Shown one piece after another: positions 30,609 through 52,509 of a stretch of 64,000 nucleotides of DNA; position 1 is the first letter of the stretch, and each line of letters starts with the position of its first letter. The stretch comes from Sphingobium sp. JS3065 (GTDB taxonomy: Bacteria > Pseudomonadota > Alphaproteobacteria > Sphingomonadales > Sphingomonadaceae): positions 613,501-677,500 of the forward strand of contig NZ_CP102665.1 of NCBI RefSeq assembly GCF_026427355.1. The letters run 5' to 3'. The notes beneath the pieces are model-generated. The model was not told the origin of the DNA and ran no database searches. It saw nothing but the letters and a program-made list of their open reading frames with translations. The translations under genes and the position numbers were made by a program.

Positions 30609-32111
30609 GTGGACTGCGGCCTCTTCCAGGGATCCCGCACGCTCGAAACGCTGAACCATGGCGCCTTCAGCTTCGACCCCGGCACAATCGACGCGGTCGT
30701 CCTCACCCACGCCCATATCGACCATTGCGGCCTGCTTCCCAAGCTCGCGGCGCAAGGCTTCGACAAGCCCATCTGGTGCACCCCCGCCACCTCGGACCTG
30801 CTCGAATATATGCTCGCCGACGCCGGGCGCATTCAGGAAAGCGAAGCCGATCGCCGCAACCGCCGCCGCGACCGCGCGGGCGAAAGCCTGTTCGAGCCGC
30901 TCTATACCGAACAGGACGCGCTCGACGCCTGGCGTCTCACCCGCCCAACGCCGCTCTGCGAATGGTTCGACCCCGCCCCCGGCTTTCGGGCGCGCTTCTG
31001 GAACGCGGGACATATATTGGGCGCGGCCTCGGTCGAGGTCGAAGCGGCGGGCATGCGCCTCCTGTTGTCGGGAGACTTGGGACCGATCAACAAGGCCTTC
31101 CATCCCGACCCGCAATCCCCGTCCGGCCTGGACCATGTCGTCTGCGAATCCACCTATGGCGACCGCAGCCGCGACAAGTTCACCATCGAACAGCGCCGCA
31201 CCCAACTGGAAGCAGAGATAAGGGACGCCCTTTCGCGCGGCGGCAACCTCATCATCCCCAGCTTCGCGCTCGAACGCACGCAGGAACTGCTGCTCGACCT
31301 TGCCAAGCTGGCCGACGCCGACCGCATTCCCAACATCCCGATCTTCGTCGACTCCCCCCTCGCCAGCCGCGCGACCAAGGTGTTCGCCGCCCATGCGTCG
31401 GAGCTGGAGGATACCGGCGGCGAAAACGTCTTCCGCCACCCCTCCATCCATTATGTCGAGGATGTCGCGGAATCGATCCGCCTCAACAGCATGTCCGGCG
31501 CGATCATCATGGCCGCGTCGGGCATGTGCGAAGCGGGCCGCATCCGCCATCATCTGAAGCATAACCTATTCCGCCGGGATTCCACCGTCCTGTTCGTGGG
31601 CTTCCAGGCAAAGGGAACGCTCGGCCGCGTCATCCTGGACGGGGCGCAGCGCGTCCGCATCTCTGGCGAGGACATCAATGTCCGCGCCCGCATCCGCCGC
31701 ATCGACAGCTATTCCGCCCATGCGGACCGGGATGAACTGCACAACTGGATCAAAGCCCGCAGGCCGATTTGCGGCAGCCTGTTCCTAGACCATGGCGAAC
31801 CCGAAGCTGTCACGGCCCTGCGCACGCTGACGCAGGCGGACGAACCCGCCGCCAGCATCATCGCCCCCCAGATCGGCGAAGTCTATGCGCTGGAACCCGG
31901 CAAGCCCGCCCGCCGCATCCAGACCGGCCGGGTCGACATGGAACAGCTCAGCGGCCCCGACTGGCAGAATGACTATGCCGACTTCATCACCCACCTGAAA
32001 CAGCATCTCGGCCGCATCCGCAGCGAACGCGCCCGCCGCGATGCGCTGGCGCAGATGCGGCGCGTGCTCGACGCCTATGAAGAGGCGAAGCAGCGCCAGC
32101 ACGCCAGATGA
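30609..32111 (+). CDS. MBL-fold/beta-CASP ribonuclease-like protein, N-terminus removed by IS21
   Basis: This is a metallo-beta-lactamase with a beta-CASP domain, the fold of RNA-processing nucleases such as CPSF73 homologues. Metal motifs THAHIDHCG, SAHADRDEL and the late LDHGEPEA are present. The frame is open back through HILVDCGLFQG to the IS21 end at 30601-30603, and family members start about 20-25 residues before this segment. The true N-terminus is therefore missing and GTG at 30609 is only a possible new start. The first strand of the MBL fold is lost, so activity is doubtful. It overlaps the next gene (ATGA). Confidence 0.82.
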   Translation: MDCGLFQGSRTLETLNHGAFSFDPGTIDAVVLTHAHIDHCGLLPKLAAQGFDKPIWCTPATSDLLEYMLADAGRIQESEADRRNRRRDRAGESLFEPLYTEQDALDAWRLTRPTPLCEWFDPAPGFRARFWNAGHILGAASVEVEAAGMRLLLSGDLGPINKAFHPDPQSPSGLDHVVCESTYGDRSRDKFTIEQRRTQLEAEIRDALSRGGNLIIPSFALERTQELLLDLAKLADADRIPNIPIFVDSPLASRATKVFAAHASELEDTGGENVFRHPSIHYVEDVAESIRLNSMSGAIIMAASGMCEAGRIRHHLKHNLFRRDSTVLFVGFQAKGTLGRVILDGAQRVRISGEDINVRARIRRIDSYSAHADRDELHNWIKARRPICGSLFLDHGEPEAVTALRTLTQADEPAASIIAPQIGEVYALEPGKPARRIQTGRVDMEQLSGPDWQNDYADFITHLKQHLGRIRSERARRDALAQMRRVLDAYEEAKQRQHAR

Positions 32112-32794
32112 GGGATATGCCCATGCCCAGCGCTTCCCCATCGCCGATCCGCCACGCGGTGGTGCTCGCCCATCCCGATCCCCGCAGCTTCAACGCCGCC
32201 ATCGCGCAAACCTATTGCGCGGCGGTGGAGACAGCAGGCCAGCAGGCGATCCTGCGCGACCTCTACGCCATGCATTTCGATCCGGTGCTGAAGGCGCAGG
32301 AACGGCCGGGACGCAGCGACTTTCGCCTGTCCCCCGACGTGCAGGCCGAACTCGCCCTGCTGTGCGGCGCGCATGTCGTCACCTTCGTCTTTCCCGTCTG
32401 GTTCGGCATGCCGCCTGCCATCCTCGTCGGCTATATCGACCGGGTGCTGGGGGCAGGAACGACCGTGGGGCAGGTCCAGCATGGCGCTGGCCGGGGCTTG
32501 CTCGATAACGGCCATCTGTGCGCCATCACCACCTCCGGCGCGCCGGAAGACTGGCTGCAAGCGCAGGGCCAGACCCAGGCGCTGCGCGATCTCGCCGGAA
32601 CCTACCTCTTCCGCGCCTTCGCCATGCAATCGGCCGGGGCGCTGCATATCGGCAATGTCGTGGACGGCGCGCCCGCCGACTTCTTCGAAGACAATCTCGC
32701 CCGCGTGCGCCAGCGGGCAGCAAATATCTGCGCCCGCGTCGCGCAGGAACTGCACGGCACCCCCCTCCCGCCCCAGCTTGGCGACGGCAGTTGA
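32108..32794 (+). CDS. NAD(P)H oxidoreductase, flavodoxin-like fold (MdaB/KefF-like), 228 aa
   Basis: This is an FMN- or FAD-binding quinone reductase of the flavodoxin-2 fold. Visible features are VVLAHPDPRSFNAAIAQTY at the phosphate loop, VFPVWFGMPPAILVGYIDRV at the flavin site and CAITTSGAPEDW. It would reduce quinones by two electrons, avoiding semiquinone stress. It overlaps the MBL gene by four bases and is followed by the phosphorylase after six bases, so all belong to one operon. Start codons at 32108 and 32117 are both possible. Confidence 0.87.
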   Translation: MRDMPMPSASPSPIRHAVVLAHPDPRSFNAAIAQTYCAAVETAGQQAILRDLYAMHFDPVLKAQERPGRSDFRLSPDVQAELALLCGAHVVTFVFPVWFGMPPAILVGYIDRVLGAGTTVGQVQHGAGRGLLDNGHLCAITTSGAPEDWLQAQGQTQALRDLAGTYLFRAFAMQSAGALHIGNVVDGAPADFFEDNLARVRQRAANICARVAQELHGTPLPPQLGDGS

Positions 32795-32800
32795 ACCCCC

Positions 32801-34288
32801 ATGCTGACGATCAAGCGCCTCGCCATCGATACCTATCCCGAAAACACCGCCTTCCTGCTGCGAGAGAGCAACGGCTATTCCGCCGAGCAATTCCAGGCCC
32901 TGCGCAAGATCCGCATCAGTGACGGCAGCGCCGAAATCCTGGCCACGCTCGCGCTGGTGGATGAACCCGCGATGCTGAAGCCGGGTGAAATAGGTCTGGG
33001 CGAGCAGGCCTTCCGGCGGCTCGCCCTGCCCGAAGGCGCATCCGTCGCGATCGAACAAGCGATGCCGCCCCCCAGCCTGGAATTTGTCCGGCGCAAGATC
33101 GACGGCGACACGCTTCAGGATGATGAGATGTCCGCGATCATCCGCGACATTGCCGTCCACCGCTATTCGCCGATGGAAATCGGCGCATTCCTGGTCGCCT
33201 GCGCCGGGTTCATGAGCACGCAGGAAACCCTCGCCGTCACCCGCGCCATGGCAGATGTGGGCAACCGCTTCGACTGGAAAGCCCCGCTCGTCGTCGACAA
33301 GCATTGCATCGGCGGCATCCCCGGCAACCGCACGTCGATGATAGTCGTGCCGATCGTGGCGGCGCACGGGCTCATCATGCCCAAGACATCGTCCCGCGCG
33401 ATCACCTCCCCCTCCGGCACCGCCGACACGATGGAGGTGCTGGCGAGCGTCGATCTCAGCGAAGAGGCGATGCGCGCCATCGTCGCGAAGGAAAAGGCCG
33501 TGCTCGCCTGGGGCGGCAAGGTGAACCTGTCGCCCGCCGACGATGTGCTGATCTCCGTCGAACGTCCGCTGCGCATCGACACATTCGATCAGATGGTCGC
33601 TTCCATCCTGTCGAAGAAGCTGGCCGCCGGCTCCACCCATCTGGTCCTCGACATACCGCTCGGTCCCACGGCCAAGGTCCGCACGCAGGACGACGCGGTT
33701 CGCCTGCGCAAGCTGTTCGAACATGTCGCGGACAAGATCGGCCTCGTCATCGACATCGTCATCACCGACGGATCGCAGCCCGTGGGCCGGGGCGTCGGCC
33801 CGGTGCTGGAGGCGCGCGATGTCATGGCGGTGCTGCGCAACGATGCCGACGCGCCGCAGGACTTGCGCGAACATGCGCTGTTCCTCGCGGGCCGCGTCCT
33901 CGATTTCGATCCCGCCCTGCGCGGCGGCCGGGGCTATGCGCGGGCGATGGACCTGCTCGCTTCGGGCAAGGCGCTCGCCGCCATGGAGCGGCTGATCGAC
34001 GCGCAGGGGCGGCAGCCGGTGAAGTTCGCCCTCGGCGACCATGTCCATGAGGTGCTCGCCACGCAGGAGGGGCGAGTGAGCGCCATCGACTGCCACCGCA
34101 TCGCGCGCATCGCTCGCCTGGCGGGCGCGCCGATGGACAAGGGCGCGGGCATCGACCTGCTGCACAAGGTCGGCGCGCAGGTGCGAAAAGGTCAGGCGCT
34201 CTACCGCATCCACGCCCAGTCGCGCACCGGCCTCGGCTTCGCGCGCGATCTGGCCGTGGAAGACTCCGGCTATGAGGTGGCGCGGTGA
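32801..34288 (+). CDS. Thymidine/AMP phosphorylase-family protein (long form), 495 aa
   Basis: This is a pyrimidine-nucleoside or NMP phosphorylase of the DeoA superfamily. The substrate-binding region VVDKHCIGGIPGNRTSM and PKTSSRAITSPSGTADTMEV are clear. It is about 60 residues longer than bacterial thymidine phosphorylase, because of an 80-90 residue N-terminal domain, and matches the size of archaeal AMP phosphorylase. PRPP synthetase is the next gene (ATGA overlap), so the pair may salvage ribose phosphate from nucleotides. Whether it acts on thymidine or on AMP/CMP/UMP cannot be read here. Confidence 0.85.
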   Translation: MLTIKRLAIDTYPENTAFLLRESNGYSAEQFQALRKIRISDGSAEILATLALVDEPAMLKPGEIGLGEQAFRRLALPEGASVAIEQAMPPPSLEFVRRKIDGDTLQDDEMSAIIRDIAVHRYSPMEIGAFLVACAGFMSTQETLAVTRAMADVGNRFDWKAPLVVDKHCIGGIPGNRTSMIVVPIVAAHGLIMPKTSSRAITSPSGTADTMEVLASVDLSEEAMRAIVAKEKAVLAWGGKVNLSPADDVLISVERPLRIDTFDQMVASILSKKLAAGSTHLVLDIPLGPTAKVRTQDDAVRLRKLFEHVADKIGLVIDIVITDGSQPVGRGVGPVLEARDVMAVLRNDADAPQDLREHALFLAGRVLDFDPALRGGRGYARAMDLLASGKALAAMERLIDAQGRQPVKFALGDHVHEVLATQEGRVSAIDCHRIARIARLAGAPMDKGAGIDLLHKVGAQVRKGQALYRIHAQSRTGLGFARDLAVEDSGYEVAR

Positions 34289-35169
34289 GTGCGGTCATCC
34301 TTGCCTTCGCGGACAGCATGGCGGCGGCGGGCAGGCTGGGAGCATCGCTCGACCTGGCGGTCCATGAAGTCGCCGCTCGCCGCTTCCCCGACAATGAAGC
34401 CCTCATCCGCATCCCGGCATCGGCGCAAAGCGTCATCCTCTACCGATCGCTCGACGATCCGGACCACAAGCTCATCGAACTCCTGCTCGCCGCCTCCGCC
34501 GCGCGCGACGGCGGGGCGGAACGCATCATCCTCGTCGCGCCCTATCTCGCCTATATGCGGCAGGACAAAGCCTTTCACCCCGGCGAAGCGGTCAGCCAGA
34601 AGGTCATTGGCGGCCTGCTCGCCAGCCATTTCGATGCGCTTCTGACGGTCGACCCCCACCTCCACCGCGTCGCCACGCTTTCCGAAGCTATCCCCGATAT
34701 CCCGGCCATCAGCCTGTCCGCAGCCCCCCTGCTCACGGCGCTGATCGACGCGCAGGACGATCCGATCATCATCGGCCCGGACAGTGAATCCCGCCAATGG
34801 ACCGAAGCGATCGCCAGACCGCTCGGCCTTCAAACCCTGATCGCGACGAAGCAGCGCCTGGGCGACCGTCAGGTGAGCCTCGCCATCCCGGAGGTGGAGC
34901 GCGCAAGGGGCCGCCGCGCCATCATCGTGGACGACATGATCTCCAGCGGTCGCACGCTGGCAGAGGCGGCGAAATCGCTGCGTCAGGCTGGCGCGACCTC
35001 CATCGAAGCCATCGCCACCCACTGCCTCGCTCGCCCCGACGATCTGGCCTTCATGGCCACCCATGGAATCGCGCGCATCGCCAGCAGCGACAGCATAGAC
35101 GGACCGACAAGCCAGGCAGCGCTCGCCCCCCTCATCGCCCACGCACTGAGGGACAACGGACTAGCCTAG
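34285..35169 (+). CDS. Ribose-phosphate pyrophosphokinase (PRPP synthetase-like), 294 aa
   Basis: The protein transfers pyrophosphate from ATP to ribose 5-phosphate to make PRPP. VAPYLAYMRQDKAFHPGEAV near residue 87 and the PRPP loop RAIIVDDMISSGRTLAEAA near residue 211 are present. It is slightly short for the housekeeping enzyme and lies in a stress operon, so it is probably an accessory copy. It overlaps the phosphorylase stop by four bases. After it come 22 bases and then the convergent CBS gene. Confidence 0.88.
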   Translation: MSAVILAFADSMAAAGRLGASLDLAVHEVAARRFPDNEALIRIPASAQSVILYRSLDDPDHKLIELLLAASAARDGGAERIILVAPYLAYMRQDKAFHPGEAVSQKVIGGLLASHFDALLTVDPHLHRVATLSEAIPDIPAISLSAAPLLTALIDAQDDPIIIGPDSESRQWTEAIARPLGLQTLIATKQRLGDRQVSLAIPEVERARGRRAIIVDDMISSGRTLAEAAKSLRQAGATSIEAIATHCLARPDDLAFMATHGIARIASSDSIDGPTSQAALAPLIAHALRDNGLA

Positions 35170-35191: not shown

Positions 35192-35611
35192 CTACTCCCC
35201 CAACAAAGCCCGCAAGATATCCGCCCGGCTGATCAGCCCCACCAGCTTGCCCTTCGCCATGACCGGCAACCGCTTCACCCCATGCCGCTCCATCAGCCCG
35301 ATGGCCTCCCCGATCGGGGCGTCGCCATCGACGCTGATCAGTGCCGTCGTCATGATCTCGGCCACGCGCCGCCCCTCCAGCGCGCGCGCCGCGCTGCCCA
35401 CGCTCGATCGGGCAAGTTCCTCAAGCCGGAACCCCTGCCCGTCCCTTCGAAAAAAGTCGCCTTCGGACAGGATGCCGCACAGATTTCCTTCCGCGTCGAC
35501 CACAGGCAGCGCGCTGATGCGATGATCGCCCATGCAGCGGATTGCGCTTGCGAGCGAACTGTCCGGCGTCGTCGTCGCCGCGCCCAGCGTCATGATGTCA
35601 CTGGCCTTCAT
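35192..35611 (-). CDS. CBS-domain protein (tandem CBS pair), 139 aa
   Basis: The whole protein is one Bateman module. The first CBS motif is MTLGAATTTPDSSLASAIRC with ISALPVVDAEGNLCGILSEG, the second ISVDGDAPIGEAIGLMERHG with RLPVMAKGKLVGLISRADIL. Such stand-alone pairs bind adenine nucleotides or other ligands and often respond to stress; the mycobacterial hypoxic response protein Hrp1 is of this type. It overlaps the pfkB stop by 14 bases, so it is translated with that gene. Confidence 0.9.
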   Translation of the reverse strand: MKASDIMTLGAATTTPDSSLASAIRCMGDHRISALPVVDAEGNLCGILSEGDFFRRDGQGFRLEELARSSVGSAARALEGRRVAEIMTTALISVDGDAPIGEAIGLMERHGVKRLPVMAKGKLVGLISRADILRALLGE

Positions 35612-36572
35612 GCGCCTGCTCCTTTTCCATGAGTTGAGGATCGCCCGGCTTGGACACCAGCTTCAGCAGCCGCTCGACGTCCGCGCGGTGGCAAAGGTCG
35701 GTGCCCGGCGTCAGCACCGCCGCCGCGCCCGCCGCGATGCCAAGGCGAAAGGCCTCGACCGGGTCTTGCTCGCATCCCAGGGCAAACACCATCGCCGCCA
35801 GGAAACTGTCGCCCGCGCCCACCGCGCTCTTCGCCTCGGCCGGAATTGCGGGCAGCCGCCATGTCCCCGACCGGCTCGCCAGCAGCGCGCCGTCGTGACC
35901 CATCGTCACGGCGACATGCTCCGCCTTGCCGCTGTCCACTATCTCCCGCGCCGCCGCGGCGATCTCGCTTTCCCCGGCCAGCACCTTGCCGGTAAGCTGG
36001 CGCAATTCCCCAATGCTCGGCTTGATGAGGTAAAGCCCGCCGCCCCGCACCGCCGCGCGCAGGGCATCGCCCGAACTGTCAAGGACGATGCGCATCCCAT
36101 GCCGCTGTCCAAGCTCGCAGACGCGGCAATAGAAATCCTCCGGCACGCCCTGCGGCAGGGAACCGCTGGCGACCAGATAGTCCGCCTGCGGCCCGTCCAG
36201 ATGGTGGAGCGCGGCCTCCCATTCCTCCGCCTTCACCTCCGGCCCCCGGGGCACGACGCGATATTCCTTGCCCGTCTCCTTTTCATAAAGCGACGTGCTG
36301 ATGCGCGTGTCACCCTCTATGGGAATGCGGAAGCGGACCAGCGCATGCTTGTCCAGCAGCCCGTCGAGCGCGCAGCCCGTCGCGCCGCCCGACAGATAAT
36401 AGGCCCGCGCCGTCCCGCCCAGCCGCGCGATCACCCGCGCCACATTGATGCCGCCGCCGCCCGGATCATAATGTTCCTGCTGGGTCCGCATCTTGCGCGT
36501 GTGGAAAACCCGGTCCGTCTCATAGGCGACGTCGATCGCCGGGTTCATCGTCAGGGTGATGATCCTCTTCAT
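35598..36572 (-). CDS. pfkB: PfkB-family phosphofructokinase/sugar kinase, 324 aa
   Basis: This ribokinase-fold enzyme is most like 1-phosphofructokinase or phosphofructokinase 2. The N-terminal MNPAIDVAYETD and the glycine-rich GGGGINVARVIARLGG (about 37-53) are signature 1. VGAGDSFLAAMVFALG holds the catalytic base D255. The ATG at 36572 starts the conserved MKRIITLTMNPA; the frame is open upstream but without similarity. The CBS gene follows with overlap. A pfkB next to stress-protein genes is also a feature of the mycobacterial DosR regulon. Confidence 0.9.
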   Translation of the reverse strand: MKRIITLTMNPAIDVAYETDRVFHTRKMRTQQEHYDPGGGGINVARVIARLGGTARAYYLSGGATGCALDGLLDKHALVRFRIPIEGDTRISTSLYEKETGKEYRVVPRGPEVKAEEWEAALHHLDGPQADYLVASGSLPQGVPEDFYCRVCELGQRHGMRIVLDSSGDALRAAVRGGGLYLIKPSIGELRQLTGKVLAGESEIAAAAREIVDSGKAEHVAVTMGHDGALLASRSGTWRLPAIPAEAKSAVGAGDSFLAAMVFALGCEQDPVEAFRLGIAAGAAAVLTPGTDLCHRADVERLLKLVSKPGDPQLMEKEQAHEGQ

Positions 36573-36689
36573 GGGTGAGGAAGCTATCCGCCCCTCTCCG
36601 CCGCCGGTATAAGTATATGTCCCCATTGGTCCCGCGCGGCGCGCGTGGAAAAAGGGGGATGCCGATATTCCAGGAAAGGACAAGGTGCG

Positions 36690-37171: not shown

Positions 37172-37849
37172 TCAAGCCGACTGCCCGCTCCGCAATTGCC
37201 GCGCCTCGCTGAGCAGGCTCACCACTTCCTCATCGCTCGTCTGGTCGAACTCGACATAATGCGCCCCCACCGCGTAGAAGGGATAAGGTTCATACAGGCA
37301 TATCACCTCGTCGCACTCCTCCCGCAGACCCGCGACGACATCGGCCGGAGCCACCGGCACCGCCAGGATCAGCCGCGCGGGATGCGCCTTGCTCAGTCCC
37401 TTGAGCGCGGCCTTCACCGTCCCGCCGGTAGCAATCCCGTCATCGACGATGATCACCGTGCGCCCGGCCACCGCCATCGGCTCCCGGTCGCCCAGATAGG
37501 CCCGCCGACGCCGGTCGATCTCGGCCAGTTGCCTGCGCATTTCGGCCCGGACATATTCGGGCGTCGGCCCCAATTGCCGCACCACATCCTCGTTGAGGAC
37601 AAGCTGCGGGGCGGCCCCGTCGACCACCGCGCCGATGCCCAGCTCCTCATATCCCGGTGCGCCCAGCTTGCGGACGAACAGCAGGTCCAGGTCCGCCTTC
37701 AGCGCCTTCGCCACCTCGACAGCCACGGGCACGCCACCACGCGGCAGCGCCAATATCAGAGGATTATGGTCGGCAAGACGGGACAGCACCTTCGCCAGAC
37801 GCACGCCAGCATCGCGGCGATCCTGGAACAGCATCGATTGCAGCTTCAT
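37172..37849 (-). CDS. Phosphoribosyltransferase-domain protein, 225 aa
   Basis: A type I phosphoribosyltransferase fold is shown by the PRPP loop VIIVDDGIATGGT (132-144) and PRGGVPVAVEVAKAL near residue 36. The base substrate is unknown. In Mycobacterium tuberculosis Rv2030c this domain is fused to an erythromycin-esterase domain; here the esterase-like gene lies two genes away in the same operon. Its start overlaps the stop of the alpha/beta-hydrolase gene by four bases. Confidence 0.88.
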   Translation of the reverse strand: MKLQSMLFQDRRDAGVRLAKVLSRLADHNPLILALPRGGVPVAVEVAKALKADLDLLFVRKLGAPGYEELGIGAVVDGAAPQLVLNEDVVRQLGPTPEYVRAEMRRQLAEIDRRRRAYLGDREPMAVAGRTVIIVDDGIATGGTVKAALKGLSKAHPARLILAVPVAPADVVAGLREECDEVICLYEPYPFYAVGAHYVEFDQTSDEEVVSLLSEARQLRSGQSA

Positions 37850-38508
37850 CGCGCCGCTCCTTTCAGGTGAGAGGTGAACCAGCGCGCCGCAAGCCCGATC
37901 ACCTGGTCGAGCGTCCCCGGCTCCTCGAACAGGTGGCTTGCGCCCGACACCACCACCAGTTCCGCAGGCGCCTTCATCAACGCCTTGGCATCATGGTTGA
38001 GCGCCAGCACATCCTGGTCCAGGCTGCCGACGATCATCAGCGTGGGCGCCTTCACGCCCCCCAATGCCGCCGCGCCCGCAAGGTCCGGCCGCCCGCCGCG
38101 CGACACGATGGCGGCGGCGCGATCGCCCGGCATGGACGCCGCGATGATCGCCGCAGCCGCGCCCGTGCTCGCGCCGAAATAGCCGAGCGGCAAGGCCCCA
38201 AGCTGCGGCACCTCCTGCGCCCATGCCGCCGCTTCGCGCAACCGCCCGGCGAGCAGGCGCACGTCGAACACGTTGCGGCGGTCCCGCTCCTCCTCCGGAG
38301 TCAACAGGTCGACCAGCAAGGTCGCCATGCCCGCGCGATTAAGGCCCGCCGCCACATGCTGGTTGCGCGGGGAGTGCCGTCCGCTGCCGCTGCCATGGGC
38401 GAATATCACCAGCCCGGCGGCGTTTTCCGGCACGTCCAGGAATCCGGACAGGCGATGCCCGCCAATGACCACATCATGTCTGTTCGCGATAAGCTCTGTC
38501 ATGATCAT
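37846..38508 (-). CDS. Alpha/beta-hydrolase (dienelactone-hydrolase-like), 220 aa
   Basis: This serine hydrolase has the nucleophile elbow GASTG in LGYFGASTGAAAAI, the acid in VGSLDQDVLAL and a C-terminal histidine in SGASHLFEEPG. It lacks a signal peptide. The ATG at 38508 overlaps the erythromycin-esterase-like stop (ATGA) and replaces a longer frame without similarity. The triple of esterase-like, hydrolase and phosphoribosyltransferase recurs in stress islands of other bacteria as far as known. The substrate is unknown. Confidence 0.85.
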   Translation of the reverse strand: MIMTELIANRHDVVIGGHRLSGFLDVPENAAGLVIFAHGSGSGRHSPRNQHVAAGLNRAGMATLLVDLLTPEEERDRRNVFDVRLLAGRLREAAAWAQEVPQLGALPLGYFGASTGAAAAIIAASMPGDRAAAIVSRGGRPDLAGAAALGGVKAPTLMIVGSLDQDVLALNHDAKALMKAPAELVVVSGASHLFEEPGTLDQVIGLAARWFTSHLKGAAR

Positions 38509-40673: not shown

Positions 40674-40744
40674 TCTTCTCGCGCCTTGAGCCGTAGATGT
40701 GAGCAACATGCCAAAAAGGTGACATGGGAGGCGCCCCTAAATCT

Positions 40745-44530: not shown

Positions 44531-45187
44531 TCAGAATGTCGATACGACGATATTGTCCTCGACCTTGGTCACGCCGGGCGCGGCCCAGGCCGCCCGCTCC
44601 GCTACGCCGCGTTCGTGCCAGGCCTTCACCCGGCCGCCCAGGCGTACGGTGTTCCCATCCGTGGCGATCGTGACGCCAGCAGCGTCCAGATCCGCCTGAC
44701 GCTTGAAAGCGGCGGCGATCCGGTCCCGGATGTCGGCGCTGACGGGCAGCTTCTTCACCTCGATAAGGTTGCTGACGCCGGTCACGCCTGAAATCCTTGC
44801 GGTCGCCCTTCTCGCCTCATCGCTCTGATAATAGGCATCGACAACGCCCGACAGCGTGACCCAGCCCTTCTCGACCTTCACATTGATCTTGTCGTGCGGG
44901 ATGGAGACATTCCACGAAAACATGTCGAGGATGCGCTTGGCTATTTCGTGGTCCGCCGTTTTGGGTTCGGACTTGAAGCGCACCTGGATCTCCTCGGCGA
45001 TCGCCTTGACCCCGCTGACGCGCCGAGCCGCCTTTTCCGCCGCCATCTTCTCCAGATAGTTGGAAACATAGCCGGACAGGGTCACCACCCCGTCATTCAC
45101 CGCCACGCCGATATCCGCATGATCGACGCTGGGGTCCCACTCCAGCTCGTCCATGACATCATGCTGCAACTGTCCATCGGTCTTCAT
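44531..45187 (-). CDS. Protein with three BON domains (OsmY-like), 218 aa
   Basis: Three BON repeats follow each other: residues about 7-75 (VNDGVVTLSGYVSNYLEKMA), 80-150 (VEKGWVTLSGVVDAYYQSDE) and 150-215 (TDGNTVRLGGRVKAWHERGV). BON domains bind phospholipid surfaces, and OsmY-like proteins protect the envelope in osmotic stress. No signal peptide is visible, so a cytoplasmic or membrane-surface place is likely. The ATG at 45187 overlaps the 3' end of the histidine kinase gene, so both are coupled. Confidence 0.87.
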   Translation of the reverse strand: MKTDGQLQHDVMDELEWDPSVDHADIGVAVNDGVVTLSGYVSNYLEKMAAEKAARRVSGVKAIAEEIQVRFKSEPKTADHEIAKRILDMFSWNVSIPHDKINVKVEKGWVTLSGVVDAYYQSDEARRATARISGVTGVSNLIEVKKLPVSADIRDRIAAAFKRQADLDAAGVTIATDGNTVRLGGRVKAWHERGVAERAAWAAPGVTKVEDNIVVSTF

Positions 45188-45914
45188 CGCAACTCTCCTC
45201 GTTGGTGGGTGACGCGCTCCAATGCCGGGCGCGTGATTTGCTGGCGGCTGGAAGCGCCACCGGCAAAAGCATGGCGACCACTGTGCCCGAACCTGATCGG
45301 GCACTGCCGCGAATGAATATTTTGCCCCTCATGTCGCGGATCGCCCCGCAGACCCGCTGCAAGCCATTTCCACGGCCGCCGCTTCCTGCGTCGAGTGGCG
45401 GTCGGGCAGCACCGTTGGCCGGCAAGCCCGGGCCATCGTCCGCAATCACCAGCCAGACCCGATCTCCGATCCTGCGGCAGCGGAGCAAGATATGCCGCGC
45501 GCCCGCCCTGACGGCATTGGCGACCAACTCCAGCATCACCGCTTCCAGTTCGGCCGGATCGGCGCTTACCCGCGCATCGGGCAAGGCCATCTGCGTGTCG
45601 ATTTCCAATGACGCGGGGTGCTTCACTATGGCGTGGAGCAAGGGCGCGGCGTGGACGACCTGCGCGCCCACATCCACGGGGAAGCACTGTCCCCCCGCCT
45701 GCCTTGCAAGCAGCCGGGTCGTGAGTTCGCTGCCCCGCACCGCCGCCTTCTCCAGCCCGCGCAGGATGGTTTTCCCCACTGGGCCGTCTTGATGCTTATC
45801 CAACAGATGCCTGATCGAGGCGATGACAGCGAAAAGGTTGCGCAGATCGTGAGCCGTTTGCCGGACAGGATCGTGCCGTGGAGCACCGCCTTCCGTGTCT
45901 CCTGAACGCTGCAT
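45159..45914 (-). CDS. Soluble sensorless histidine kinase, 251 aa
   Basis: The protein is a histidine kinase core with no membrane or sensor domain. The phospho-acceptor helix has AHDLRNLFAVIASIRH with a likely active His near residue 22, the N-box is LELVANAVRAGA, and the ATP lid has IADDGPGLP and GGRGNGLQRVCG. It may receive signals through a partner or act as a phosphotransfer or phosphatase subunit. Its 3' end overlaps the BON gene by 29 bases. No own response regulator is adjacent; FixJ and the split regulator are the nearest. Confidence 0.82.
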   Translation of the reverse strand: MQRSGDTEGGAPRHDPVRQTAHDLRNLFAVIASIRHLLDKHQDGPVGKTILRGLEKAAVRGSELTTRLLARQAGGQCFPVDVGAQVVHAAPLLHAIVKHPASLEIDTQMALPDARVSADPAELEAVMLELVANAVRAGARHILLRCRRIGDRVWLVIADDGPGLPANGAARPPLDAGSGGRGNGLQRVCGAIRDMRGKIFIRGSARSGSGTVVAMLLPVALPAASKSRARHWSASPTNEESCDEDRWTVAA

Positions 45915-45962: not shown

Positions 45963-45982
45963 CCTATTCGCAACTTCCCGTA
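45963..45982. promoter_or_regulatory. Motif shared with the adh/hdeD gap (candidate regulator site)
   Basis: CCTATTCGCAACTTCCCGTA lies in the gap between the divergent histidine kinase and acyl-CoA synthetase genes, 49 bp from the former. A close relative, CCTATTCGTAGATTCACGAA, lies at 50006-50025 in another divergent gap of this island. Fourteen of 20 bases agree. Binding by a local FixJ-type protein is a guess. Confidence 0.3.
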
Positions 45983-46101
45983 AGTAGCTTTTCATTAACC
46001 GAGCCAGGACGCCCTGCGGCATTTACGAATATCGCCATGGACACCGCCCTTCCTAGGATCGCTCCGCGTTCGCGCGATCCCAGCCAAGGACGAGATTAGC
46101 C

Positions 46102-48777
46102 ATGACCATCCGCAACCTGTCGCCGCTTCTTCACGCCAGGACCATCGCCCTGATCGGAGGGTCGCAGGAAAAGGGCGCCGTCGGCACGCTCGTCCTCGAC
46201 AATCTGCTGGCGGGCGGGTTCGAAGGCAGCGTCCATGTCGTCAATCCGCACCCGGTGTCGCGACTAGGCACGACATGGGTCGCCAGCGTCACCGACCTGC
46301 CCGCCGCGCCCGAACTTGCGATCATCATGACGCCCGAACAGACCGTGGCGGGCATCATCGACGAGCTGGGAAGCCTCGGCACGCGCTGCGCCGTCATCCT
46401 GTCGGCGGGCCTTCACGATGCCAGCGCATTCCGCCAGGCGATCAGGGCTGCGGCCCAACGGCACGACATGCGGATCGTCGGACCCAATTGCCTTGGCATC
46501 ATGGCGCCCCATGCGCGGATCAACGCTACCTTCGCCTGCGCCCCGGTGCTGCCGGGCAATCTTGGCCTCATCTCGCAGAGCGGCGCGCTTATCACCGCCG
46601 TGCTCGATTGGGCGCAAACCCGCCGGGTGGGCTTTTCCAGCGTTATTTCCGCAGGCGACATGACGGATGCGAACCTTGGCGACCTGATCGACCTGCTTGC
46701 GGCCGATCCCCACACCCACGCCATTCTGCTCTATGTGGAGGGTGTCACCGAGGCGGCCGAGTTCATGATCGCTGCCCGCGCCGCCGCGCTCCATAAGCCC
46801 ATCATTGCGATCAAGGCCGGCAAGAGCCAGCTCGCCGCGCAAGCGACCCTTTCCCACACTGGCGCCATGATCGGTTCCTATGACGTGTATGAAGCCGCCT
46901 TTGCACGCGCCGGAATCCTGCTGGTAGACAGCCTGACGGAACTGTTCGACGCCGCCGAGATCCTATGCGCCTGTGCGCCGGTGCCCGGCAACCGGCTGGC
47001 GATCCTGACCAACGGCGGCGGCGCTGGCATATTGGCGGTCGATGCCTTGGCGCAGGCGGATGGGCGGCTCGCGGCATTGACCACCGAAACGATCACCGCG
47101 CTTGCGGAGGTGACGCCCGCAGCTTCACCGCGCGCCAATCCCGTCGATATATTGGGCGACGCGGACGCGGACCGCTATGCCGCTGCGGTACGAGCCATCC
47201 TGCGCGACAGCGGGAGCGACGCGGTGCTGCTCATGAACTGCCCCACCGCGCGCAGCGAAGCGAAGGAAACGGCGCTGGCGATCTGCGGCGAAGTCGCGGC
47301 GGCAGCGCAGGAGCGTATCCACAAGCCTGTCCTTGCCTGCTGGCTGGGTGAGGCCAACAGCGATAGGGTAAGGCCTGTGTTCGCAGCGGCGGGCATTCCG
47401 GTCTTTTCAACGCCGGACGACGCCGTGCGCGCCTTTGGCTATCTGGCCCAGGCTCGCCGCCTTCGCGAGAGCCTGACGGAAGCGCCCGCTCGGTCGCGTG
47501 AGGTCCAGGCCGACCGTGCCGCCGCCCGCGCCATCATCTCCGATGCGCAGGCGGATGGATGCACGACGCTTTCCGAAATCAAGGTGAAGAAACTGCTGGA
47601 GGCCTATGGCATCCCCGTCGCTCCCACGCGCTTTGCCGCTTCGGCGGACGCGGTGGAAGAGGCTTGCTGCCGGCTGAGCGCGCCCTATGCGGTGAAGATC
47701 GTCTCGCGCGACCTGCCGCACAAATCGGATGTGGGCGGGGTCGCGCTCGACCTGCCGGACGCCCGGGCTGCCGTGGCGGCCGCGCGGGAGATGGAACGGC
47801 GTATCCGCCGCGATTTCCCGCAAGCGAGAATCCAGGGGTTCGCCGTCGAGGACATGATAAGGGTGAAAGACGGCAGGGAGATGATCGTGGGCCTTAGCAC
47901 CGATCCGGTTTTCGGACCCATGATCATGGCTGGGGCGGGCGGCACCGCGACGGAGCTTCTAGATGACAAGGCCATCGACCTCCTGCCCATAGACCATGCG
48001 CAGGCTCGCGCCCTGATTGAGGGGACGCATATGTCCCGGATGCTCGCCGGGTATCGGAACGTCCCGGCAGCCGATGTCGAAAGCGTCGCTGATGTGCTGG
48101 ACGCCGTGTCGGCCATGGCGGTCGACCTTCCCAGCCTGCTGGAACTCGACATCAACCCCTTGATCGTGAGCGCCGCAGGCGTCATCGCTCTGGATGCGCG
48201 GGCGCGGATCACCGCCGAGGCGGCAACAGCATCCCGCTTAGTCCTGCGCGCGCCGCCGGAAGGCTGGGCGTCCGACCTCGTGACAGAACAGGGGGTTCGT
48301 TTCCATGTACGGCCGGTGCGCCCTGACGACGAGCCAGCGGTCGCGGCCTTCTTCGACCATGTCTCGCCCGAAGACCTGCGCTTCCGCTTCATGTCGGGGC
48401 TTTGCAAGGTCAGCCACGACCAGATCGTGATGATGACGCGAGTGGACTATGTCCGCACCATCAGCTTCCTCGCCTTCGGAGAGGAAGGCGAACTCCTCGC
48501 CATCGCCATGCTCGCGACCGACCCTGATCGCGCCCACGCGGAAATAGCGCTCACCACCCGCACGGACCTGAAGGGCAAGGGCATCAGCTGGACCTTGTTC
48601 GAACATGTGCTTCGCTATGCGAAGGCGGAAGGGATCGAAACGGTCGAGTCGATCGAATCCACCGACCATGACGCGGCGCTACGCATGGAACGGGAGCTTG
48701 GCTTCGTGACCATCGCGGACCCCGACGATCCCACCGTCCGGATCGCCAGGAAGAGCTTGGCGGCTCATGCCAGTTGA
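46102..48777 (+). CDS. NDP-forming acyl-CoA synthetase fused to GNAT acetyltransferase (PatZ/Pka-like), 891 aa
   Basis: Domains in order are a CoA-binding Rossmann domain (about 10-100), a succinyl-CoA-ligase-like domain with the phospho-histidine loop LSHTGAMIGS (about 250), an ATP-grasp domain (about 470-690) with PYAVKIVSRDLPHKSDVGGV, and a C-terminal GNAT (about 720-880). The architecture is that of protein lysine acetyltransferases Pat/PatZ, in which the synthetase part senses acetyl-CoA, and also of some acetate-CoA ligases. Because the ligase histidine is kept, both activities are possible. It probably tunes acetyl-CoA use or protein acetylation in the stress state. Confidence 0.88.
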   Translation: MTIRNLSPLLHARTIALIGGSQEKGAVGTLVLDNLLAGGFEGSVHVVNPHPVSRLGTTWVASVTDLPAAPELAIIMTPEQTVAGIIDELGSLGTRCAVILSAGLHDASAFRQAIRAAAQRHDMRIVGPNCLGIMAPHARINATFACAPVLPGNLGLISQSGALITAVLDWAQTRRVGFSSVISAGDMTDANLGDLIDLLAADPHTHAILLYVEGVTEAAEFMIAARAAALHKPIIAIKAGKSQLAAQATLSHTGAMIGSYDVYEAAFARAGILLVDSLTELFDAAEILCACAPVPGNRLAILTNGGGAGILAVDALAQADGRLAALTTETITALAEVTPAASPRANPVDILGDADADRYAAAVRAILRDSGSDAVLLMNCPTARSEAKETALAICGEVAAAAQERIHKPVLACWLGEANSDRVRPVFAAAGIPVFSTPDDAVRAFGYLAQARRLRESLTEAPARSREVQADRAAARAIISDAQADGCTTLSEIKVKKLLEAYGIPVAPTRFAASADAVEEACCRLSAPYAVKIVSRDLPHKSDVGGVALDLPDARAAVAAAREMERRIRRDFPQARIQGFAVEDMIRVKDGREMIVGLSTDPVFGPMIMAGAGGTATELLDDKAIDLLPIDHAQARALIEGTHMSRMLAGYRNVPAADVESVADVLDAVSAMAVDLPSLLELDINPLIVSAAGVIALDARARITAEAATASRLVLRAPPEGWASDLVTEQGVRFHVRPVRPDDEPAVAAFFDHVSPEDLRFRFMSGLCKVSHDQIVMMTRVDYVRTISFLAFGEEGELLAIAMLATDPDRAHAEIALTTRTDLKGKGISWTLFEHVLRYAKAEGIETVESIESTDHDAALRMERELGFVTIADPDDPTVRIARKSLAAHAS

Positions 48778-48912: not shown

Positions 48913-49950
48913 TCAGGGCGTGATCAGCACCTTGAGCGCCTGCGTCTCCGCCGCCCGGTCAAATACGTCATAGGCTTCCATAATGCCGTCCAGCGTGAAG
49001 CGATGAGTAATAAGCTTCTTTGCGTCAACCTTCCCGCTCGCAACCGTCTTCAGCAGCATCGAAGTGGTGGCAGTATCCACCAGCCGGGTCGTGATCGTGA
49101 TATTATGCGACCAGAGCCGTTCCAGATGCAGGTCGGCCTTCACGCCATGCACGCCAATGTTCGCGATGACCCCACCCGGTGCGACCAGGTCTTCGCACAG
49201 TTCAAAGGTCGCAGGCACGCCGACAGCCTCTATGGCCGTGTCCACGCCCCTGCCGTCGGTCAACGACTTGACCACTGCCACGGCGTCTTCCGACCGGCTG
49301 TCGATAGTGCGCGTCGCGCCGAACCGTTCCGCCACGGCCAACCGGTTGGCGTCGAGGTCGATCATGATGATCTGGCTGGGCGAATAGAATTGCGCCGTCA
49401 GCAAGGTGGCCAGCCCGATAGGGCCCGCGCCCACGATGGCGACGCTGCTCCCGGGCGCGACCTTGCCATTCAGCACGCCGCATTCAAAGCCGGTCGGCAA
49501 TATGTCGCTCAGCATCACCAGCGCTTCCTCGTCGGACCCAGCGGGAACCGGATAGAGGCTGGTGTCGGCATGAGGGATGCGCACATATTCGGCCTGCGTG
49601 CCGTCGATGGCATTGCCCAGGAGCCACCCCCCGCTCACGCAATGCGAATAGATGCCCCGGCGGCAATAGTCGCACCGCCCGCATGAGGTGATGCAGGAAA
49701 TCAGCACATGATCGCCGAGCTTGAAATTCGCGACCGCCGATCCGACCGCCTCCACAACGCCGACGCCCTCATGCCCCAATGTCCGTCCCGGATCGCAAGT
49801 GGGCACGTCGCCCTTCAATATATGGAGGTCGGTGCCGCATATGGTCGTATGCGTGACGCGGACGATGGCGTCTCCCACATCCTTGATCTCTGGCCTTTCT
49901 CGCTCGCCCAGATGCTTCTGACCGGGCTCATCATAGATCAACGCTTTCAT
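48913..49950 (-). CDS. Zinc-dependent alcohol dehydrogenase, 345 aa
   Basis: This is an MDR alcohol dehydrogenase. The catalytic zinc ligands are in TTICGTDLHI and GHEGVGVVEAVG, the four structural-zinc cysteines are in CGRCDYCRRGIYSHC, and the NAD site is VAIVGAGPIGLATLL. It would oxidise or form small alcohols. The ATG at 49950 starts the family sequence MKALIYDEPGQ; the frame is open for 92 codons more without similarity. It is divergent from the hdeD-like gene. The 135-bp gap after the preceding gene shows only a weak GC-rich dyad (48836-48854). Confidence 0.9.
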   Translation of the reverse strand: MKALIYDEPGQKHLGERERPEIKDVGDAIVRVTHTTICGTDLHILKGDVPTCDPGRTLGHEGVGVVEAVGSAVANFKLGDHVLISCITSCGRCDYCRRGIYSHCVSGGWLLGNAIDGTQAEYVRIPHADTSLYPVPAGSDEEALVMLSDILPTGFECGVLNGKVAPGSSVAIVGAGPIGLATLLTAQFYSPSQIIMIDLDANRLAVAERFGATRTIDSRSEDAVAVVKSLTDGRGVDTAIEAVGVPATFELCEDLVAPGGVIANIGVHGVKADLHLERLWSHNITITTRLVDTATTSMLLKTVASGKVDAKKLITHRFTLDGIMEAYDVFDRAAETQALKVLITP

Positions 49951-50005: not shown

Positions 50006-50025
50006 CCTATTCGTAGATTCACGAA
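50006..50025. promoter_or_regulatory. Motif between adh and hdeD-like genes (candidate regulator site)
   Basis: CCTATTCGTAGATTCACGAA is 56 bp from the alcohol dehydrogenase start and 58 bp from the hdeD-like start, central in the divergent gap. It resembles the sequence at 45963-45982. Function is inferred from repetition and position only. Confidence 0.3.
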
Positions 50026-50083
50026 CATCATCCCTTCGTTTCCAGCGCTAAACTCGCGGTCTCGCATCTTGAGGAGGGCGATC

Positions 50084-50647
50084 ATGAACTTGAAAATGGC
50101 CTTGGAACCGGGGGCATCCCTACCGGGACAGCAGCTATGGCGCACTTTCCTGGGCATCGGCGCCGCTCTTGCGTTGCTCGGCATCCTCGCCAGCGCCAAC
50201 CTGCTCCTCGCGACGATCCTTGCCACCTATATCGTAGGCGCGGCCATGTTCGCGGGCGGTATATTCCAGCTGTTCCACGCCTTCAGCGTCCAGCGCTTTT
50301 CATCGGGAGTCCTATGGGGCCTCGCCGCGCTGCTCTACCTCATCACGGCCAGCATCATGCTCGTCGATCCCCTCCTTGGCGCGAGCGTCCTTACGGTCTT
50401 CATCGGCATTACCCTGGCGGCGTCAGGTTTCGCCCGCCTCATCCTTGCCTTCCGGCACAACGAAGGCAGGGTGTGGATGATCCTGTCCGGGGTAATCAGC
50501 ATCGTGGCCGCAGCGCTGGTGGCCGTCTCATGGCCGTGGAACAGCCTCTGGCTGCTCGGGATGGTGCTCGCCATAGACCTCATATCGCAAGGCGTGATGC
50601 TCATGCTCTTCGGCTTTTCCCTGCATTCGGCGGCCAGCGTACAGTGA
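50084..50647 (+). CDS. HdeD-family (DUF308) membrane protein, 187 aa
   Basis: The protein has about six transmembrane helices arranged as repeated DUF308 units, for example FLGIGAALALLGILASANLL and LWGLAALLYLITASIMLVDP. HdeD proteins are linked to acid or general stress resistance in the inner membrane. The ATG at 50084 has GAGGAGG nine bases upstream. Its stop overlaps the following alcohol dehydrogenase start (GTGA), so the two are coupled. Confidence 0.85.
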   Translation: MNLKMALEPGASLPGQQLWRTFLGIGAALALLGILASANLLLATILATYIVGAAMFAGGIFQLFHAFSVQRFSSGVLWGLAALLYLITASIMLVDPLLGASVLTVFIGITLAASGFARLILAFRHNEGRVWMILSGVISIVAAALVAVSWPWNSLWLLGMVLAIDLISQGVMLMLFGFSLHSAASVQ

Positions 50648-51648
50648 AGCCGATGGTGGCGATGCAGATTCCCGCGCCGGGCGCTGCACTCGTGCGGATC
50701 GAACGTCCCATGCCCAATCCCGGACCCGGCGAACTGCTGATCGAAGTCGCCGCCTGCGGCGTATGCCGGACCGATCTGCACGTTCTCGACGGGGAAATCC
50801 CGGCACGCTACCCCATCATACCGGGCCATGAGATCGTCGGCCGGGTCGCGGCATTGGGCAGCGGCGTTGAAGGTTTCGCCATCGGCCAGCGTGTCGGCGT
50901 CCCCTGGCTAGGACATACATGTGGCGTCTGCCCCTATTGCCGGGCGGGGCGGGAAAATCTGTGCGACGCTCCGCTCTTCACCGGAGCCACGCGGGACGGC
51001 GGCTATGCCACCCATGCGATTGCCGACGCGCAATATTGCTTCGATCTGCCCGATCGCTTTTCGGACGTGGAGGCCGCGCCCCTGCTCTGCGCTGGCCTGA
51101 TCGGGTGGAGAGCGTTGCGGCTGGCTGGTCCGGCAAGCGTCATCGGCCTATATGGCTTTGGCGCCGCCGCGCACATATTGGCGCAGGTCGCCCGACATCA
51201 GCAGCGCACCGTCTACGCCTTCACGCGGGACGGCGACACGGCCGGACAGGACTTTGCCCGTTCGCTCGGCTGCGCCTGGGCGGGCGGCTCATCTCAGACG
51301 CCGCCTACGCTCATCGACGCCGCCCTGATCTTCGCCCCGGCGGGCGAACTCGTTCCCCGGGCCCTACGAGCGGTTAGAAAAGGCGGCCGCGTCATATGCG
51401 CGGGCATCCACATGAGCGACATCCCCTCCTTCCCCTATGCCGATCTGTGGCAGGAAAGGCAGATCCTCTCGGTCGCCAACCTGACGCGGGAAGACGGCAC
51501 CTCCTTTTTCGACCTGGTAGGCGGCATGCAGCTGCACACCGTCACCCAAAGCTTCCCCCTCGCGCAAGCCAATCAGGCGCTGCAAAGTCTGCGCGCAGGC
51601 AGGGTTCAGGGCGCGGCGGTCATTATGCCGCCAACAGCGACTGCGTGA
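50644..51648 (+). CDS. Zinc-binding alcohol dehydrogenase, AdhA-type, 334 aa
   Basis: This is a second MDR alcohol dehydrogenase. The catalytic zinc is bound through AACGVCRTDLHVLDGE and PGHEIVGRV, the structural zinc through CGVCPYCRAGRENLC, and the nucleotide site is GLYGFGAAAHILAQ. The family resembles propanol-preferring AdhA enzymes. The GTG at 50644 overlaps the hdeD-like stop; an ATG at 50653 is an alternative. It differs clearly from the dehydrogenase at 48913. Fermentative alcohol formation under low oxygen is a plausible role. Confidence 0.88.
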   Translation: MKPMVAMQIPAPGAALVRIERPMPNPGPGELLIEVAACGVCRTDLHVLDGEIPARYPIIPGHEIVGRVAALGSGVEGFAIGQRVGVPWLGHTCGVCPYCRAGRENLCDAPLFTGATRDGGYATHAIADAQYCFDLPDRFSDVEAAPLLCAGLIGWRALRLAGPASVIGLYGFGAAAHILAQVARHQQRTVYAFTRDGDTAGQDFARSLGCAWAGGSSQTPPTLIDAALIFAPAGELVPRALRAVRKGGRVICAGIHMSDIPSFPYADLWQERQILSVANLTREDGTSFFDLVGGMQLHTVTQSFPLAQANQALQSLRAGRVQGAAVIMPPTATA

Positions 51649-51718
51649 CTCTACTTATGGCGTGGCATCCCGTGTCGGGCGACAATTCGATGCAGAGTCT
51701 TTCAAAGGATAATTGCCC

Positions 51719-52015
51719 ATGCGCCGCCATTTCGCCAGCGCCGCGCTCCTCAACCTGTTGCTCATTGCCGGAGCATCCGCGCAGACCGCACCTCCCCGTG
51801 CGCCACCGCCCGCGGCCGCGCCAGCGGAGCACGATCCGGCAGGCGAGCATATGATGCAGACCGGCACCATGCCCATGCAGCCGGGCCATCCGATGCCCGG
51901 AGCGATGGAGCATTGCCGTGCGATGCATGACTCAGCCGAACACAGACAACAGCATCGGATGATGCACCATTCCGGTGAACCGCCACTTTCACAAAAGCAG
52001 GAGAAGGACAAATGA
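51719..52015 (+). CDS. Small exported His/Met-rich protein, 98 aa
   Basis: The protein starts MRRHFASAALLNLLLIAGAS, a clear signal peptide cut after ASAQ. The mature part is rich in proline, then in histidine and methionine (EHMMQTGTMPMQPGHPM, RAMHDSAEHRQQHRMMHHSG), a composition often seen in copper or other metal binding. AAAGGA lies nine bases before the ATG. Its stop overlaps the Hsp20 start by four bases, an odd pairing of a periplasmic protein with a cytosolic chaperone. No defined family recognised. Confidence 0.72.
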   Translation: MRRHFASAALLNLLLIAGASAQTAPPRAPPPAAAPAEHDPAGEHMMQTGTMPMQPGHPMPGAMEHCRAMHDSAEHRQQHRMMHHSGEPPLSQKQEKDK

Positions 52016-52509
52016 CCGATTTCCGTTCCCTCATCCCCTTTGGCCGCAGCACTATCTTCCGCAGCGGCTTTGATCCCTTTACCGATCTGCGCAAGGAAAT
52101 GGATCGCCTAAGCGACGATTTCGGCCGGGGCTGGCTCACCACCAGCGGCGATGGCGGCAGCAGGGGCTTCAACCTCCCCCGCGTCGACATCGCGGAAACA
52201 GACAAGGGCCTTGAATTGACCGCCGAACTGCCGGGCTTCGACGAACAGGATGTATCGCTCGACGTGCAGGACGATGTCCTCACCATCAAGGCCGAGCATA
52301 AGGAAGACCGCGAGGAGAAGGATGAAAAGAAGAATTATCATCTGATCGAGCGCAGCCGGGGAAGCTATCTGCGCCGCGTCGCCCTACCGTTCGAAGCGGA
52401 TGCGGACAAGGCCAGCGCCCATTTGGAAAAAGGCCTGCTGAAGGTCATCGTCCCTCGTCTCGCCACGGAACAGAGCAAGCCGCGCCAGATTCCGGTTGGA
52501 TCGAAATAG
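52012..52509 (+). CDS. Hsp20/alpha-crystallin small heat-shock protein, 165 aa
   Basis: The alpha-crystallin domain spans about residues 53-155, with VDIAETDKGLELTAELPGFD, LTIKAEHKEDREEKDEKKNY, SYLRRVALPF and a C-terminal LEKGLLKVIVPR; the IPV tail motif is near the end. Such proteins hold unfolded proteins without ATP. The N-terminal arm is about 50 residues. It is coupled to the preceding small exported protein gene. A small heat-shock protein is also the hallmark member of the mycobacterial dormancy regulon. Confidence 0.93.
   Translation: MTDFRSLIPFGRSTIFRSGFDPFTDLRKEMDRLSDDFGRGWLTTSGDGGSRGFNLPRVDIAETDKGLELTAELPGFDEQDVSLDVQDDVLTIKAEHKEDREEKDEKKNYHLIERSRGSYLRRVALPFEADADKASAHLEKGLLKVIVPRLATEQSKPRQIPVGSK

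Follow-up and report, generated by a model that had tools for sequence, protein, structure and literature searches.

How would an oxygen sensor and its response regulator reach the stress and salvage genes that surround them in Sphingobium sp. JS3065, and do these genes form a unit at all? The genes lie around fixL and fixJ, between 30.6 and 52.5 kb of a 64-kb stretch of DNA (the window; C2:613501-677500, C2 being contig NZ_CP102665.1, which is 1.02 Mb long and one of the five contigs that make up the 5.11-Mb genome). A sequence-only reading had listed there, among others, a haem-type FixL, FixJ, a second FixJ-like pair, a universal stress protein (USP), Hsp20, a PfkB kinase, a CBS pair, a phosphoribosyltransferase (PRT) and an erythromycin-esterase-like protein, and had seen in them a proteobacterial counterpart of the DosR dormancy regulon of Mycobacterium tuberculosis. 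Pfam profiles and a search of the genome located every family that it named within that interval (Table 1). Judging from gene order and promoter sequences, we think it likely that the locus is a hypoxia-survival island under FixLJ and that FixJ, like DosR, works on many promoters itself, not mainly through FixK.

The FixLJ pair and a promoter motif

FixL is here a 630-aa kinase whose closest named matches are those of Sphingobium chlorophenolicum and S. arseniciresistens (89%). Its second PAS domain, which accompanies HisKA and HATPase domains, aligns with the solved haem domains of FixL (E = 2.4e-45 for 1d06 and 3.5e-42 for 1dp6). The RHDSY and G-G-R segments are conserved in it, and so is the arginine that entry 1y28 has replaced; the RHDSY segment provides the ligand of the haem, and the arginine is the O2-signalling residue. 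The haem type proposed for this kinase is supported by that match, and the kinase's score against the NCBIfam model of rhizobial FixL (525 bits) is under the cut-off of 850. Unlike DosS and DosT, which sense through a GAF-bound haem, the kinase has no GAF domain among the families listed for it in the Pfam scan. FixJ, with a receiver and a GerE helix-turn-helix (HTH), is encoded beside fixL. The second FixJ-like pair survives only in part: a FixJ-like item is present, but instead of an intact pair there are a receiver-only open reading frame (ORF, 40275) and an HTH-only ORF (40006), which are separate tblastn matches also in four related loci (L017, L018, L019 and L034). Because the receiver-only protein FixT inhibits FixL in Caulobacter (PMC7078487), ORF 40275 may be FixT-like.

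The new element of the present analysis is a promoter motif, TNCGTAaNtTcCCNaA, that was learned without the window. Two divergent window promoters have CTATTCGNANNTTCNCGNA in common, as was noticed by eye, and in the promoter between the kinase and acyl-CoA ligase genes the motif sits inside a 27-bp block that is identical in five genomes and has diverged flanks. Earlier matrices seeded from the window are circular for it; all figures given here come from an unseeded matrix, read at a threshold of 12 bits. For this matrix, 70 upstream regions were taken from seven FixL loci of Sphingomonas and Novosphingobium (L020-L022 and L024-L027; L023 and L028 were omitted as near-duplicates), with no window or Sphingobium sequence among them. 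The best motif, aTNCGTAaNtTcCCNaA, reached 15.3 bits; control searches with regions of the JS3065 genome (sets of 88 and 85) gave 9-10-bit motifs only. With the unseeded matrix, the FixJ site published for the region ahead of fixK in Sinorhizobium meliloti (TAAGTAATTTCCCTTA, quoted in PMC4999443) scores 13.6 bits, a value equalled or beaten by 2 of 74,522 control 16-mers and 4 of 20,000 shuffles. A full scan of the 45-kb part of S. meliloti pSymA with fixLJ found one place of at least 12 bits, the published site itself. The next 49 kb were scored at upstream regions alone, and there a single additional region reached 12.5 bits. Since the matrix picks out the published site in pSymA, the motif is, as far as sequence can say, a FixJ box.

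Predicted FixJ sites of at least 12 bits mark 3 of the 10 island regions, compared with 0 of 15 in the rest of the window and 2 of 173 control regions (Fisher p=0.0011); a fourth island region, between PfkB and orf 36699, holds a candidate of 9 bits, and the orthologous place scores 11.2 bits in L019 and 10.3 in L034. The other Sphingobium island loci have a site in 13 of 41 regions, and a second FixLJ island of the JS3065 genome in 3 of 10. Elsewhere in this genome the threshold was reached in 1 of 18 regions at C1:460-496 kb, in none at C1:1001-1020 (10 regions), C1:40-60 (9) and C2:677-697 (4), and in 1 of 19 at C2:745-800, before a Crp-family gene.

The enrichment recurs in a held-out set of 20 loci from 16 genomes, each 20 kb (once 17 kb) around FixL. 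These were hand-picked from the first 30 of 52 listed matches, three matches in the JS3065 genome not being taken, and their controls were 20 stretches elsewhere in 13 of the same genomes. Sites of at least 12 bits were found in 31 of 166 regions at the FixL loci and in 4 of 170 control regions (p=3.7e-7), so that 16 of the 20 loci have one; column-permuted matrices gave 7 matches at most in 200 trials. The targets include USP (8), FixL (6), receiver (5) and Hsp20 (2) genes, and 23 target labels were unmatched to island families. Held-out and earlier FixL loci have no common piece longer than 800 bp at 88% identity except at L117, where it is an IS21 copy; L117 contributes no site.

Palindromes listed from upstream regions gave no matches except those of a divergent promoter with its own complementary strand. 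A strict pattern had three matches genome-wide, none of them at the islands since the window sites deviate from the consensus, and its reversed control also had three, which is no evidence for a regulon. With two mismatches the genome-wide count was not above that of the reversed control (14 vs 13), and the only two exact genome-wide matches were the window sites that had supplied the pattern.

Direct control or a cascade through FixK

We infer a circuit in which, as oxygen falls, the haem PAS of FixL would lose O2 and FixL would phosphorylate FixJ. FixJ would then bind TNCGTAaNtTcCCNaA sites at the promoters of the esterase-hydrolase-PRT, BON-kinase, acyl-CoA ligase, zinc alcohol dehydrogenase (ADH) 1 and DUF308 genes, and probably of the PfkB-CBS pair; it would also bind before a Crp/FNR-type gene elsewhere in the genome, the protein of which would serve a cbb3 oxidase through FNR boxes. 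The genes so induced may economize on nucleotides and sugars and recycle them (AMP/thymidine phosphorylase, phosphoribosyl pyrophosphate (PRPP) synthetase, PRT and PfkB), yield ATP from acyl-CoA and reoxidize NADH (acyl-CoA ligase and the ADHs), and shield proteins and the cell envelope (Hsp20, USP and BON), perhaps in a dormant state.

The strongest alternative, which we nevertheless regard as unlikely, is a cascade of the rhizobial type in which FixJ controls only a Crp/FNR-type gene, besides itself, and the protein of that gene activates the island. The JS3065 genome has three Crp-type HTH genes well above the cut-off and one at it, and the Crp-family gene at C2:754725, which adjoins genes with domains of ccoN, ccoO, ccoP, ccoG and fixI, has a 21.4-bit FixJ-type site before it, which speaks for such a cascade. 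Predicted alphaproteobacterial FixK regulons include Hsp20, CBS, FixL, FixJ and zinc ADH genes (Table 1 of PMC2908626), and two-mismatch FixK-like sites in the window are somewhat over expectation (24 vs 16.1; 4 of 100 shuffles reach 24). Exact FNR/FixK boxes (TTGA-N6-TCAA), however, number zero in the 64-kb window (0.44 expected) and zero in the stretches that hold the second island, compared with three in the 20 kb around the cbb3 and Crp genes (C2:745001-765000; 0.07 expected), and FixJ-type sites stand at the island promoters themselves, although degenerate FNR/FixK boxes could be present there too. This distribution suggests two branches, one in which FixJ would act on the island directly and one in which it would act on the oxidase through the Crp protein. 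The 20 kb with the cbb3 genes also carries an OmpW gene.

In published comparative work the role of FixJ is narrow and concerns mostly fixK: FixJ sites are predicted at four genes in Rhizobiales and only at fixK in Caulobacterales, the two orders in which FixLJ is reported, and the FixLJ section of that paper names no Sphingomonadales (PMC4999443). In Burkholderia, low O2 is a signal for FixLJ, which act on fixK (PMC5234846), and FixJ of Rhodopseudomonas binds the nifA, nifH and fixK promoters (PMC13327599). Among the matches listed in the one literature collection searched, we found no FixJ regulon or hypoxia island in sphingomonads, and the nearest study concerns Fnr in Sphingopyxis granuli (PMC7713065).

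Several observations weigh against direct and broad control by FixJ. Within the window, the Hsp20 (-0.7 bits), USP (4.3) and FixL (8.5) promoters are under the threshold, a site of 11.0 bits lies outside the island, at 56764, and the promoter region of the first island operon is gone through an IS21 insertion. The held-out regions are somewhat longer than their controls (mean 249 vs 206 bp), and the true binder could be the split HTH ORF or any member of the NarL/FixJ family whose specificity resembles that of FixJ. That the window is free of exact FNR boxes is unremarkable in itself at the expectation given above, and a stretch with another Crp/FNR-type gene is likewise without them. Only 1 of 52 promoter regions of S. 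meliloti pSymA has a site (12.5 bits, before an acyl-CoA ligase homologue), so broad direct use would not be a general trait of FixJ. Finally, a usp gene of S. granuli has an Fnr box (PMC7713065), and FNR control of such genes therefore also exists in sphingomonads.

Conservation, mobility and an IS21 insertion

Conserved synteny had been named beforehand as a test of the sequence-only reading, and the island shows it. Of its 19 genes, 16-17 recur at 60% identity or more and in the window order in all four Sphingobium loci compared (L017, L018, L019 and L034, the last on plasmid pTomMM15a). Counting families with the island proteins as tblastn queries (19 families; E<=1e-5, half of the query covered), we found 15 of 19 at each of three Sphingobium FixL loci, 2-8 at nine loci of Sphingomonas and Novosphingobium and 1-2 at four distant FixL-like loci, some loci being shorter than 20 kb. 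By the same count, 19 of 20 arbitrary 20-kb stretches of the JS3065 genome had none of the families and one had one; these stretches were chosen by position and did not include the USP-rich C1:460-496 kb, which has matches to USP and ADH1-like only. A second FixLJ island of the genome (22 kb, C1:938-960 kb) has ten of the families, among them PfkB, PRPP synthetase, the phosphorylase, Hsp20 and two ADHs; a third FixL lies next to a USP at C2:779 kb. Across the family, 41 of 119 genomes, JS3065 counted, have a FixL match at E<=1e-100. These comparisons support the view that the genes belong together as a conserved unit, with a haem-type FixL/FixJ in their midst.

Long stretches of the island are also carried by 11 Sphingobium plasmid records (47-67% covered, 78-79% identity). 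An Azospirillum plasmid has the phosphorylase gene paired with that of the metallo-beta-lactamase (MBL) protein, with no FixL match in the 31 kb examined. Together with the IS21 copies nearby, the occurrence of island-type genes on plasmids would suit a general stress or maintenance island that is mobile on large plasmids, carries FixLJ and the motif as passengers and is induced by other signals such as stationary phase or nitrosative stress. Sphingomonad stress genes are reported in PMC7713065 to be anaerobically induced, and not through Fnr, which would suit it as well, but the motif is enriched around FixL and agrees with the known FixJ site, and we consider this account improbable, more so than the cascade. 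That common stress genes became neighbours by chance in this one strain has practically no probability left, for although USP and CBS domains are common in the genome (18 and 22 matches), the order kept in four of four loci and the 0-1 families in 20 arbitrary stretches contradict it.

In JS3065, IS21 has removed the promoter region of the island's first operon together with the start of the MBL gene, for a 2596-bp IS21 copy stops 7 bp ahead of the GTG of the MBL ORF, whereas pTomMM15a retains 31 extra N-terminal codons in the alignment and, upstream of the gene, a 21-bit FixJ-type site. In line with the alignment, the Lactamase_B profile match begins at position 36 of 196 in the window protein vs 4 of 196 in that of pTomMM15a. 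On C1, close to the second FixLJ island, the genome has an identical copy of the element.

Two further IS21 copies, 100% identical to that of the window and in opposite orientation, lie at 1-2404 and 17500-20000 of L117, a stretch of a 163.6-kb contig. Both reach the ends of the stretch, and they flank 15 kb with FixL, FixJ, a receiver and two ADH matches, an arrangement like a composite transposon. The Sphingopyxis conjugative plasmid pDB-2 (NZ_CP102386.1) carries ppsA, USPs, PfkB, MBL, PRPP synthetase, the phosphorylase and two ADHs, with no FixL match within the 31 kb examined.

Known systems and gene content

DosR is a regulator that acts on many promoters under a haem kinase, and Rv2028c is a USP. 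For sites like the DosR box, GGGACTWWAGTCCC, the window is not above chance level, with one match at 3 mismatches (14171, outside the island) and 3.4 expected. In M. tuberculosis, Rv2029c is PfkB-like, Rv2030c has PRT and erythromycin-esterase domains, and the operon includes HspX (PMC4410610, our sole source for the fusion); the gene overlap that had been drawn with the DosR regulon holds for these families, since PfkB, PRT/erythromycin-esterase and Hsp20 genes are neighbours in the Rv2028c-Rv2031c block as in the island. The PRT and the esterase are separate genes here, and among the 120 listed of 7,999 scored esterase homologues no fusion of the two was seen, all having the esterase domain alone. 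The proposal of the same toolkit under a different sensor family holds for the kinase, with its FixL-type haem PAS and not a GAF domain; it does not hold for the regulator, because FixJ and DosR are both of the NarL/FixJ family (PMC3029386 for DosR), which makes half of the control circuit the same in kind.

Nor would a proteobacterial counterpart of DosR be new, because the DosR regulon has been said to have genes homologous to the lxa locus of Burkholderia cenocepacia, and Bradyrhizobium shares much of the toolkit. The lxa locus brings together USPs, Hsp20, BON, zinc ADH, an MBL protein of about 51 kDa and phosphofructokinase in a cluster reported as induced at low O2 (PMC6127331), and the island has genes of each kind. 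It differs in that B. cenocepacia has its FixLJ homologues elsewhere (BCAL2210/2211), whereas here FixLJ lie inside the island; that lxa has six USP genes and the island one; and that the PRT-hydrolase-erythromycin-esterase operon is unnamed in the table of PMC6127331, which gives examples only. The island ORFs scanned showed no phbB, phosphotransacetylase or cytochrome c gene, all three of which lxa has. The Bradyrhizobium FixLJ-FixK2 system and the FixLJ region of S. meliloti pSymA share haem FixL, FixJ, Hsp20, USPs, CBS, a PfkB-type kinase and ADH with the island, and Bradyrhizobium proteins induced by microoxia include USP, CBS, PfkB-type kinase, ADH and Hsp20 (PMC6515984), but rhizobial targets are reached mainly via FixK and in the island FixJ-type sites mark several promoters. 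A Variovorax paradoxus plasmid (CP063167) groups a PAS kinase and response regulator with a Crp/Fnr gene, USPs, MBL, ADH, BON and cbb3 genes in 31 kb, but its kinase and regulator are only 24-26% identical to FixL and FixJ of the window, and it has no motif site at 12 bits.

The analogy with DosR is sound but was already made for lxa, and what the present data may add is direct, broad control by FixJ. The odds look even to us that sphingomonad FixLJ is a one-step dormancy regulon, with FixJ and not FixK at the promoters of a mobile, often duplicated island, and that the DosR logic (a haem kinase and a NarL/FixJ-family regulator that acts directly on genes for USP, PfkB, PRT/erythromycin-esterase and Hsp20) has emerged or been kept, under another sensor, in a second phylum. 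If so, a broad direct FixJ regulon would help to explain how a large group of pollutant-degrading, mostly aerobic bacteria survives loss of oxygen, and the island would be a harmless model for a DosR-type gene set and would supply exact sites for binding tests.

Table 1 Genes and predicted FixJ-type sites of the island, with positions in the window
Feature	Position	Strand	Basis
IS21-family element (istA, istB)	28006..30601	-	Pfam Mu-transpos_C_2, IstB_IS21
MBL/beta-CASP/RMMBL nuclease-like gene, 5' end lost to IS21	30609..32111	+	Pfam, alignment
Flavodoxin_2 family reductase	32108..32794	+	Pfam
Thymidine phosphorylase family, archaeal/AMP-phosphorylase-like	32801..34288	+	NF003338, TIGR02645 above cut-off
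Ribose-phosphate diphosphokinase (PRPP synthetase) paralogue	34285..35169	+	Pfam, NCBIfam
CBS-pair protein	35192..35611	-	genome search
PfkB-family hexose kinase	35598..36572	-	Pfam, NCBIfam
Weak FixJ-type site, 9.1 bits, between PfkB and orf 36699	36609..36626	+	matrix
PRT	37172..37849	-	Pfam
Probable alpha/beta hydrolase	37846..38508	-	Pfam 23.2 bits, under cut-off 27
Erythromycin-esterase superfamily protein	38505..39851	-	Pfam
FixJ-type site, 15.2 bits, before esterase-hydrolase-PRT operon	39936..39953	-	matrix
GerE HTH-only ORF, second half of split FixJ-like regulator	40006..40230	-	
Receiver-only ORF, FixT-like candidate	40275..40709	-	
FixJ	40745..41383	-	Pfam; NCBIfam FixJ 246.4 bits, cut-off 255
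FixL: DUF4118, two PAS (second haem-type), HisKA, HATPase	41352..43244	-	
USP of tandem length	43492..44292	-	Pfam
Triple BON-domain protein	44531..45187	-	Pfam
HATPase-domain protein, probably short histidine kinase	45159..45914	-	Pfam
FixJ-type site, 14.3 bits, divergent kinase(-BON) / acyl-CoA ligase promoter	45966..45983	+	matrix
Acyl-CoA ligase, ADP-forming type, with GNAT domain	46102..48777	+	Pfam; NCBIfam scores under cut-offs
Zinc ADH 1 (ADH1)	48913..49950	-	
FixJ-type site, 20.2 bits, divergent ADH1 / DUF308 promoter	50009..50026	+	matrix
DUF308 protein	50084..50647	+	
Zinc ADH 2	50653..51648	+	
Hsp20 / alpha-crystallin chaperone	52012..52509	+	

Some products of the window deserve separate mention. 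The esterase-superfamily protein at 38505 was rejected as an Ere macrolide esterase, the EreA, EreB and EreD models of NCBIfam giving 26-53 bits against cut-offs of 750-800. Outside the island, positions 59488-59943 encode a Host_attach/baeRF12 protein; the same family occurs near another FixL locus (L120) and is also among those induced by microoxia in Bradyrhizobium (PMC6515984). Of the NCBIfam models, the MBL/beta-CASP protein best matches those of type VII Cas14 and archaeal aCPSF1, far under cut-off in either case, and it perhaps belongs to a separate bacterial branch of such nucleases. The phosphorylase at 32801 scores 478 bits with the AMP_phos model of NCBIfam, under its cut-off of 535. 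This archaeal-type AMP/thymidine phosphorylase adjoins the PRPP synthetase paralogue (32801-35169), and the pair occurs again in the second island and on plasmids, which hints at a bacterial salvage route from AMP to ribose-bisphosphate or PRPP.

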